Below are positions 3,515-5,666 of a stretch of DNA of 47,605 bases, in pieces. The first letter of the stretch is position 1, and each line of letters opens with the position of its first letter. The translations under genes were made by a program, and so were the position numbers. The notes under the pieces were generated by a model that worked only from the letters and a program-made list of their open reading frames with translations, ran no database searches and was not told where the DNA came from. Origin of the DNA: an uncultured Pelagibacteraceae bacterium (lineage in GTDB: Bacteria; Pseudomonadota; Alphaproteobacteria; Pelagibacterales; Pelagibacteraceae); assembly GCA_902562205.1 (NCBI GenBank), contig CACESO010000008.1, positions 1-47,605 of the forward strand, in the 5' to 3' direction.

Positions 3515-4468
3515 TTATACCTTTATCTTATTCAGAGCATTATTCTTAAAGATATTTGCTTCTTTAATATATCTTCTTACCATTTGAGTTGTTTTATGAC
3601 CTGTCATAGCCATTATGCTTCTTTCATCAGCGCCAGATTCAGCAGCTACCGTAGCAAATCCTGATCTTAAGCTATGCCCTGCAAAGTTTTTATTTTCGAT
3701 ACCTGCTAAATTTAAATATTCTTTCATTAATAAAACTACTGATTGATCTGTTAATCTTTTATCCGTTAATATTGAGCCTTTGGAAAATCTTCTAAAAATA
3801 GGTCCTGATTTTACTTTTGATATTTCCAACCATTTTTTTAAACTGGTTACAGGGCAATAAGTTTCATTAGTAAAGTAGGGTAGGCCTTTAGTCATTCCTT
3901 CTCCAAATTGATCTGTTTTTGATCTTCTAATGGAAATTTTAAGACCTTCAGGAACAAATTCTAAGTCCTCATGATCAATTGAAATCAACTCAGTTCTTCT
4001 AAAACCACCTCCAAACCCTACTAATATAATTGATCTATCTCTTAATTTTTTTATTTCTTCGATTTTTTGTTGATCAATTACATTAACTATTGATTTTAAA
4101 TGATTGATTAATATAGGTTTTTTTCCTTTCTGATAGCTTCCTTTAACCCTTTTTATTCCTAATAAATTTTCAGTAATTATTGGATGTTTTGTATCTAAAT
4201 AATGCCCTTTTAACTTATGAACCATACTTATTGATACTAATCTTCTTCTTAAAGTGCTTATTTTTGAATTTTTGGATAGATGGGTTAAGTAAATAGAGAC
4301 TATCTTAGGCTCTGTTGGTAAAGAATTTAACCCATGTTTAGTACAAAAAGCTCCAAAGTCTTTAAAATCTGACTTATAAGCTCTTAATGTATTATTTGCT
4401 TTTGAGCTTTTAAGATTATTTAAAGTTGCTTCATGAAGCGATTTAAGATCTGTTGTTAATTTATTCAT
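3515..4468 (-). CDS. Tyrosine recombinase / phage-type integrase
   Basis: 317 aa from the chosen ATG at 4468; an in-frame ATG 18 bases upstream (4486) is also possible, but MNKL... is the more natural start. It catalyses site-specific DNA strand exchange through a covalent phosphotyrosine. Seen: an N-terminal SAM-like core-binding domain (residues ~1-110), then the catalytic domain with RRTEL (Arg ~157), a Lys in RRSKTDQ (~184), HSLR (His 265, Arg 268), the TGH box (His 291) and Tyr 300 in VRRYI. All catalytic residues are present, so it looks active. It sits at the end of a glycan gene block and 0.3 kb from a GC-rich RNA-like segment, as expected of an island integrase. No duplicated att core was identified by eye. 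Confidence 0.92.
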   Translation of the reverse strand: MNKLTTDLKSLHEATLNNLKSSKANNTLRAYKSDFKDFGAFCTKHGLNSLPTEPKIVSIYLTHLSKNSKISTLRRRLVSISMVHKLKGHYLDTKHPIITENLLGIKRVKGSYQKGKKPILINHLKSIVNVIDQQKIEEIKKLRDRSIILVGFGGGFRRTELISIDHEDLEFVPEGLKISIRRSKTDQFGEGMTKGLPYFTNETYCPVTSLKKWLEISKVKSGPIFRRFSKGSILTDKRLTDQSVVLLMKEYLNLAGIENKNFAGHSLRSGFATVAAESGADERSIMAMTGHKTTQMVRRYIKEANIFKNNALNKIKV

Positions 4469-4550
4469 AATTACTATTGATAACAATTAATTATCATTAG
4501 TAATAATATAAGTCATTTAAGATGTCAAGTAAATAAGTTAATTTGTTTTT

Positions 4551-4715
4551 ATGTTAAAATATATAATTTTAGCTTTAGCTTTTATTGGAATAGTTTTCTT
4601 TGTGCTGTTTAAATTTGAAAAATTGGATAAGCCTGAGAAAAAGAAATCCATATATATTTTGATAGCAGTATTAATTTTAAGCTTAGCTGGAATTGTTTCA
4701 TTATTGTACTTTTAG
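4551..4715 (+). CDS. Small two-segment membrane protein, unknown function
   Basis: 54 aa, start ATG at 4551, stop TAG at 4713. Two hydrophobic segments (about residues 4-20 and 34-53) flank a charged loop with KFEKLDKPEKKK, so it probably forms a helical hairpin in the inner membrane. The loop is strongly charged and the ORF has no internal disruption, which supports real coding, but I recognise no family and there is no clear Shine-Dalgarno site. It is divergent from the integrase, and the GC-rich RNA-like element starts about 85 bases downstream. It could be a small accessory membrane protein or a chance ORF; the two clean hydrophobic helices favour a gene. Confidence 0.55.
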   Translation: MLKYIILALAFIGIVFFVLFKFEKLDKPEKKKSIYILIAVLILSLAGIVSLLYF

Positions 4716-4800
4716 AGTTATTAACGTTATTCACACCTATCCTATTTAATCGCTTAAAAAGTGATACATTCAACCTAAGTAGTTTGTTATTGTGAAATGA

Positions 4801-4986
4801 ATTAAGGGGCAACCCTTAACTGGCCGACTGGGGAAAGGCCGAGAGGACCAAGCCCAGGGGGCAGAAAGTCTTGCGGAGTAGCGCTAAAATCGTAGGGCGG
4901 AAGGCATGGCGGTAGCGCATACAACGACGTGCCAAAACTACTGTTCTTTGCACCGTAAAAAGTGCAAGGAAACAGGGGTTTTTTCT
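4801..4986 (+). ncRNA. GC-rich structured RNA candidate, family unknown
   Basis: Bases 4801-4980 contain 98 G/C of 180, far above the AT-rich surroundings. Helices visible on the plus strand: TTAAGGG 4802-4808 with CCCTTAA 4813-4819 closed by a GCAA tetraloop; GGCC 4822-4825 with 4837-4840 (or the alternative CTGGG 4828-4832 with CCCAG 4853-4857); AGTAG 4877-4881 with CTACT 4938-4942; GGCATG 4903-4908 with CGTGCC 4928-4933; and CGCTA 4882-4886 with TAGCG 4913-4917 in the previous hairpin's loop, which would form a pseudoknot. A final hairpin (CTGTT 4941-4945 / AACAG 4971-4975, inner TTGCAC 4948-4953 / GTGCAA 4962-4967) is followed by GGGG and six Ts. The GNRA loop and the T-run both favour the plus strand. 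It could be a free RNA of about 185 nt or a regulatory leader of the next gene. I found none of the conserved sequences of tmRNA, SRP RNA, RNase P RNA or 5S rRNA. Confidence 0.65.
4941..4985 (+). terminator. Hairpin plus T-run ending the GC-rich RNA
   Basis: A two-part stem (CTGTT/AACAG outside TTGCAC/GTGCAA, loop of eight) is followed by GGG and TTTTTT at 4979-4984. It resembles an intrinsic terminator and ends four bases before the ATG of the methyltransferase gene. It would therefore either end a free RNA or attenuate expression of that gene. The three Gs between stem and T-run make it imperfect. Confidence 0.5.
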
Positions 4987-4988
4987 TC

Positions 4989-5258
4989 ATGAAAGGCACT
5001 AAATTTCAATTACAAGTGTGGAATTATCTCAAAAAGATACCTAAAGGTTCTGTAAAAACATATAAACAAGTAGCTATAGCAATAAATAAGCCAAAATCAG
5101 CTCGTGCGGTTGCTAATGCTTGTGCTGCGAACCCATATGCCCCAAATATACCATGTCATAGGGTTATTAGGTCTGATGGAGGCCTTGGAGGTTACTCCGG
5201 AAGAGGTGGAGTTAATCAAAAATTGAAATTATTGAGGTCAGAAAAGGTTGATATTTAG
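4989..5258 (+). CDS. O6-alkylguanine-DNA alkyltransferase, C-terminal domain only
   Basis: 89 aa from ATG 4989. DNA repair protein that moves alkyl groups from O6-alkylguanine to its own cysteine in a single-turnover reaction. Seen: FQLQVWNYLKKIPKG at the N-terminus, the helix-turn-helix with SARAVANACAANP near residue 38-49 (the Arg finger), and PCHRVI with the acceptor Cys 56, then GGLGGYSGG-like and KLKLLRSE. The active cysteine is present, so it is not an alkyltransferase-like (ATL) protein, which has Trp there. Length matches the minimal C-terminal domain (Ada-C/Ogt core without the N-terminal domain). An upstream in-frame GTG at 4962 lies inside the preceding RNA hairpin and is a less likely start; no good Shine-Dalgarno precedes 4989. 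Confidence 0.88.
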   Translation: MKGTKFQLQVWNYLKKIPKGSVKTYKQVAIAINKPKSARAVANACAANPYAPNIPCHRVIRSDGGLGGYSGRGGVNQKLKLLRSEKVDI

Positions 5259-5281: not shown

Positions 5282-5666
5282 AACTAAATCAACATTTTTT
5301 TAATATTCAGGCTATAAATTGATATTATTTATAGATTCAACGATTAGTTGCACCATTCAGAGGGTAATTCTTAAAATTGACCCCTCTATGGCCGTTTAAA
5401 TAGCATATTCAATATCTGCATTGGTCTAAAATTATTTAATAACAATAGTTTTAGACACCCCCTTTTTTTTGATTTTTCACAGTCTTTGATCTAATATTAA
5501 TGGCTATTTTAAAGGTTTTTTTCATTTTTATCATTAATTTACGGTTTTTTTAGTTTTTTTCCCAAAAATATTCCTTCAAAAATACTAATAATATTTAATA
5601 ATAACAATGGTTTACGATAATATATTAAAGTATTACTTAACTAATTAGTAAACTTATATTACCTAT
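5259..5666. other. 408-base gene-free stretch with three inverted repeats
   Basis: No ORF with coding character was seen on either strand. The stretch holds an AT-rich inverted repeat (CTATAAA 5312-5318 / TTTATAG 5328-5334), a GC hairpin (AGAGGG 5359-5364 / CCCTCT 5382-5387) and a third hairpin with a T-run at 5424-5470. In a genome whose gaps are usually under 50 bases this is unusually long. It could hold a small RNA of roughly 100-150 nt, or be a scar of the accessory region. Confidence 0.5.
5424..5471 (+). terminator. Intrinsic terminator-like inverted repeat
   Basis: GTCTAAAA 5424-5431 pairs exactly with TTTTAGAC 5449-5456 around a 17-base loop, and ACCCCC followed by eight or more Ts comes next. 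Orientation fits plus-strand transcription, because no T-run lies on the other side. The stem is AT-rich and the loop long, so strength is doubtful. Confidence 0.35.

Follow-up and report, generated by a model that had tools for sequence, protein, structure and literature searches.

A copy of the marine IMES-2 RNA in a Pelagibacteraceae genome, with likely gene borders and a loop-loop pseudoknot

Few kinds of cell are as common in the ocean as SAR11 bacteria. Transcription as an abundant small RNA would be expected of a member of the IMES-2 RNA family (RF02035). Among autonomous structured RNAs of a length similar to the IMES-2 gene, 6S RNA is built as a single long hairpin that opens into a bubble at its centre. 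No function of the IMES RNAs is given among the matches listed in the literature searched; the exact term IMES-2 occurs in one listed paper, on the giant squid genome, where it is given as possible contamination from the sea. Another RNA of SAR11, the SAR11_0636 sRNA (RF01827), is held to be a separate transcript (Meyer 2009, PMC2704228).

The stretch of DNA analysed here (the window) comprises 47,605 nucleotides of an uncultured Pelagibacteraceae bacterium, with a GC content of 28.8%. Its GC-richest 180-nt stretch has 99 G or C among 180 bases, against 81/180 in the next non-overlapping one, and is located where a first-pass annotation had counted 98/180 at 4801-4980, a count that is exact, and had proposed a functional RNA, either one of the IMES motifs or new. 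A cmscan search against Rfam, which that annotation had suggested with the IMES motifs, 6S RNA and tmRNA included, identifies 4795-4935 (+) as IMES-2 with 157.2 bits (gathering cut-off 54.7; E 2.2e-41), the match spanning the whole model, positions 1-141 of 141. The first of the two proposals is thus borne out, and the RNA is not new, since the family is already catalogued as RF02035. No other family matched within 4700-5060 at E <= 10, tmRNA, SRP RNA, RNase P RNA and 6S RNA (RF00013) included, in agreement with the earlier impression that signatures of tmRNA, SRP RNA, RNase P RNA and 5S rRNA were missing. A separate match to SRP RNA was seen at G000 C3 (38 bits, below the 40-bit cut-off). The segment 4797-4986 folds at -73 kcal/mol (z = -4.2), and 0/200 shuffles were equally stable; its opposite strand gives z = -2.8, with 1/200 shuffles as stable. 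Both strands had been described as devoid of coding character, and the 65-aa open frame on the minus strand (4802-4999) has no Pfam match. The patch is therefore a GC-rich structured non-coding RNA within an AT-rich genome, and it represents a marine RNA that had been catalogued before. To the Rfam model as printed we add the likely borders of the gene, a predicted promoter and a terminator, and a loop-loop pseudoknot.

Within the order, 139 of the 297 genomes searched yielded IMES-2, with one match in each (75 of the 150 nearly complete genomes), although some carriers among the remaining genomes may be missed because the first look acted as a filter. The carriers belong to four of the 11 genera, g1 (the genus of the window), g2, g5 and g6. 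From them 91 sequences were analysed, 45 of them non-redundant; alignment A3 holds all 45, and alignments A2 and A4 leave out four (G001, G007, G191 and G142). The consensus helices of RF02035 form and covary in this copy and its relatives. In the model-based alignment of 45 rows, which was fitted to nested helices and so leans towards them, 96.2% of the paired cells are complementary; the value falls to 85.0% under shuffling and to 34-40% once the helices are slid. Two-sided changes are seen at 32 of 44 pairs. Without any fitting to structure, 41 rows aligned with MAFFT give 94.4% paired cells and two-sided changes in 26 of 45 pairs, and RNAalifold recovers the arms unaided. Because the alignment rows are related, these shuffle counts are not to be read as probabilities. 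Chance is excluded by this covariation taken with the cmscan E of 2e-41.

Four arms make up the body, all on the forward strand. Arm P1 (4802-4808/4813-4819) has 7 bp and a GCAA tetraloop, with two-sided changes in 5/7 pairs and 100% paired cells, and corresponds to the GCAA-capped hairpin drawn at first pass. P2 (4820-4864), supported by covariation and by RNAalifold, contains a 4x4 internal loop and ends in the GNRA tetraloop GAGA, replaced in one relative by GCAA and in another by GCGA. P3 (4868-4898) consists of 8 bp and a 15-nt loop (two-sided changes in 8/8 pairs, 96.1% paired cells), and P4 (4903-4911/4925-4933) carries a 13-nt loop (5/8 pairs, 99.7%). The P4 stem was already recognized in the initial drawing as a GGCATG/CGTGCC hairpin; P2 and P3 were missed there. 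The AGTAG/CTACT helix proposed to enclose P4 can be drawn in this copy, but the relatives lend it no support: 74.1% of its cells are paired, a level no higher than the 74.3% of shuffles, and its pairs never change on both sides. The comparison of relatives for compensatory changes, which the same annotation had called for, thus supports P1 to P4 and the pseudoknot described below.

The loops of P3 and P4 contain the complementary strands GCGCUA (4881-4886) and UAGCGC (4913-4918). The first-pass annotation had paired the P4 loop back to 4882-4886, and the relatives uphold this pairing, extended to 4881: compensatory changes occur in 5/45 rows of an alignment fitted to a model from which the pseudoknot is absent. 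The core GCGCU/AGCGC becomes GCACU/AGUGC in three rows, G164 (g6) and G001 and G007 (both g2), and GUACU/AGUAC in two, G216 (g6) and G191 (g5). The outer pair is broken in 9/45 rows, the innermost in 2/45 and one other pair in 1/45. A further outer pair was considered and fails in 39/41 rows. The strand in loop 3 is the palindrome AGCGCU in 30/45 rows, so that pairing between molecules is also possible. The GCACU/AGUGC variants favour pairing of loop 3 with loop 4 over self-pairing of loop 3, and fit contact within a molecule and between molecules equally. The pattern of substitutions indicates that the arms and the loop-loop pseudoknot are under selection.

The IMES-2 gene seems to extend beyond the Rfam model on both sides, by upstream elements at about 4717-4794 and, after the 141-nt body, by an intrinsic terminator reaching to about 4984. 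The block directly upstream of the RNA is conserved in the 45-row alignment and is kept across all four carrier genera although the flanking genes change. It begins with tandem DnaA-box-like repeats, GTTATTAACG and TTATTCACA, at 4717-4735 (+), for which the relatives give the consensus TTATCCaCA-nn-ATTcACAg; the better copy in the window is the second, at 4727-4735. A predicted promoter follows at 4758-4794 (+), with a -35-like AAAGTGATAC at 4758-4767, a spacer and a TATTGT-type -10-like box at about 4788-4793. The terminator, read from the sequence at 4941-4984 (+), is a hairpin (4941-4953/4962-4975) with a T-run to 4984, as had been noticed from the start, and hairpins of differing sequence occupy this position in other genera.

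The tandem DnaA-box-like element may control the transcription of IMES-2, possibly by binding DnaA. Allowing one mismatch, the 9-mer TTATCCACA occurs upstream in 37/45 non-redundant sequences against 1.3% in mononucleotide shuffles, the motif having been picked from the same alignment that was later scored, whose rows are related. As a general promoter motif of SAR11 the element is rejected, a pattern for the tandem motif having matched 16 times across 10 genomes, fewer than the 27 matches of the reversed control; four of the 16 are IMES-2 loci, and the pattern missed three of seven carriers, the window included. In the hemE/PpsR intergenic region, which we take to be the likely origin from alphaproteobacterial organisation, one or two box-like 9-mers (within one mismatch) were found in 7/11 loci and none in 4/11. 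The pattern search and the origin comparison thus lend little support to the DnaA reading. It is improbable that IMES-2 is an accessory DnaA-controlled gene whose transcription would be coupled to the replication state and whose working particle would be loop-loop dimers or higher assemblies, the palindrome of loop 3 and the conserved boxes notwithstanding.

The integrase and the DNA-repair gene reported beside the RNA at first pass are both real, but they are not tied to its function, as the loci examined in g2, g5 and g6 have other neighbours. The window has a tyrosine recombinase/integrase at 3515-4486 (-; PF00589), a hydrophobic 54-aa reading frame at 4551-4715 (+) with no NCBIfam or Pfam match, and, outside the RNA gene, the downstream neighbour ogt, a methylated-DNA cysteine methyltransferase, at 4989-5258 (+; PF01035, TIGR00589). 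Short frames resembling the 54-aa one precede ogt in G003, G066 and G064, and integrase-type sequence upstream of ogt is present in the same three genomes, all of which lack IMES-2.

In all nine g1 carriers examined, ogt lies directly downstream on the same strand with a gap of 51-64 nt, an arrangement that would suit a cis-regulatory, riboswitch-like leader of ogt. The constant association with a regulated gene expected of such a leader breaks down outside g1, where 0/5 carriers have IMES-2 beside ogt (14 carriers examined in all). In the six g5/g6 loci examined IMES-2 follows a reading frame, mnmA in the one profiled case, and in the single g2 locus examined it is flanked by an SNase-like gene on one side and an SRAP gene on the other; all seven loci have a convergent gene downstream. 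The terminator moreover ends, with its T-run, just ahead of the ogt start at 4989, and relatives without the RNA keep ogt. Since it stands beside other genes in three other genera, IMES-2 is not an ogt leader, and we regard that role as extremely unlikely. The gene orders compared indicate that IMES-2 has no constant neighbouring gene.

The ogt locus has further features of its own. An element conserved over about 100 bp lies 3' of ogt (5334-5430 in the window), with the core CTATGGCCGTTTAAA at 5386-5400, and was recognized by eye in 25/28 ogt loci of g1 and g5, whether or not IMES-2 is present. In four of the 25 the 15-nt core has four mismatches, but the flanking letters are kept. Neither an Rfam match over the cut-off nor, for the strand examined, a consensus RNA structure was obtained for the element, which is possibly a DNA site. 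In the complete g1 genomes G003, G011, G013 and G015 the ogt locus is 0.47-0.53 of the genome length from the hemE/PpsR region, which places it near the expected terminus if that region is the origin.

The hosts of IMES-2 are SAR11 bacteria. A pattern scan of named genomes returned at least 120 stretches; among the 80 listed, IMES-2 is present in 78, all titled Pelagibacteraceae, Pelagibacter or Pelagibacterales, and absent from two that are titled Leptolyngbyaceae and Clostridia. Many genomes belonging to the genus of the window are without it, so that it is not generally essential. G011, taken as HTCC1062, has no IMES-2 match, and no region at its ogt locus figures in the published GC-ranked list of intergenic regions. 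Model R1, applied to 32 genomes to look for divergent copies where Rfam had found none, recovered G191, which is a known carrier, and otherwise 10 weak places spread over nine genomes (E 0.07-4.8); as divergent copies of IMES-2 these were discounted, the seven examined appearing by eye to be within coding sequence. Very divergent copies may remain, because the first look of R1 missed the known divergent carrier G001. That IMES-1 or the SAR11_0636 sRNA might take the place of IMES-2 where it is lacking was not borne out by the searches of 297 genomes.

Close relatives differ sharply in this respect. Between the same small frame and ogt, the whole cassette from box to terminator is present in G040 and absent in G003, and likewise present in G266 and absent in G066 and G064, so that in these two comparisons it is present or absent as a whole. 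G266 and G066 have near-identical homoserine dehydrogenases, yet the flanks of the locus diverge between them more than this would predict, which makes regional exchange as possible as plain loss. On a homoserine dehydrogenase tree of 29 genomes, the presence of IMES-2 requires at least four changes (five at the fewest) and is clustered, with 1/500 shuffles as low; the tree represents one protein and genomes picked for presence or absence, with G094 on a long branch and G090 left out for lack of a match. A selfish or mobile cassette, recombining within a variable region that adjoins an integrase, could account for the sharp differences among close relatives, the changes forced on the tree, the adjoining integrase of the window and the divergent flanks of G266. 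Such a cassette would sit poorly with the single copy in each of the 139 carriers, the clustering on the tree, a neighbour that is constant in 9/9 g1 and 6/6 g5/g6 loci examined, and the lack of direct repeats of at least 12 nt within 4650-5050. Carriage by phages was not found either, with no match in phage records and no IMES-2 in two viral contigs retrieved by pattern. We consider mobility as the explanation very unlikely.

We propose that IMES-2 is an independent RNA gene, to which we assign a probability of roughly 55% in the following form. The RNA would be transcribed as drawn, at about 190 nt, from its own putative promoter to its own terminator, and would fold into a compact body held by the pseudoknot and two GNRA tetraloops. 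This body might act in trans by binding a protein, which it would scaffold or titrate, and not through antisense pairing aided by Hfq; a trans-acting, protein-binding RNA is our best guess from the sequence comparisons. Hfq (PF17209) was found in 0/30 SAR11 genomes against 5/14 control genomes, in a search that divergent versions could escape, and a conserved tertiary fold without Hfq makes a protein-binding RNA likelier than an antisense one. Antisense pairing of a small RNA with mRNAs, by way of its loops or linkers, is unlikely: the intrinsic terminator and conserved unpaired stretches such as CAGAAAG would be in keeping with it, but besides the failure to detect Hfq the loop motifs are taken up by the pseudoknot, and conservation is spread across the entire fold.

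Among protein-binding roles, a functional stand-in for 6S RNA, binding RNA polymerase, might be suggested by the failure to find 6S RNA in any of 15 SAR11 genomes, against matches over the cut-off in 4/14 controls, although divergent versions could escape this search as well. IMES-2, with several short arms and a pseudoknot, is unlike the single long hairpin of 6S RNA, and genomes without a 6S match, such as G011, also lack IMES-2, which thus is no general replacement; we hold this role to be unlikely. The likely gene borders, a testable pseudoknot, the upstream element, the named hosts and the existence of close relatives that either carry or lack the RNA open a route to experiments on its function. 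The RNA belongs to a known family, to which anatomy and a natural comparison are added here, and is a modest discovery and a useful handle.

Compared with the known systems, the locus is set apart from 6S RNA (RF00013) by the lack of any match at 4700-5060 and in the SAR11 genomes searched. IMES-1 (RF02034), a sister IMES motif by name, has no match over the cut-off in the 297 genomes and weak matches below it in two. The SAR11_0636 sRNA resembles IMES-2 in belonging to the same host group, but its model has 90 nt and another fold; it occurs in 222 of the 297 genomes, many of which carry both RNAs. IMES-2 itself is matched over its full length and with the same arms, and to its 141-nt model, printed without a pseudoknot, the present analysis adds the likely promoter, the terminator and the loop-loop pairing.
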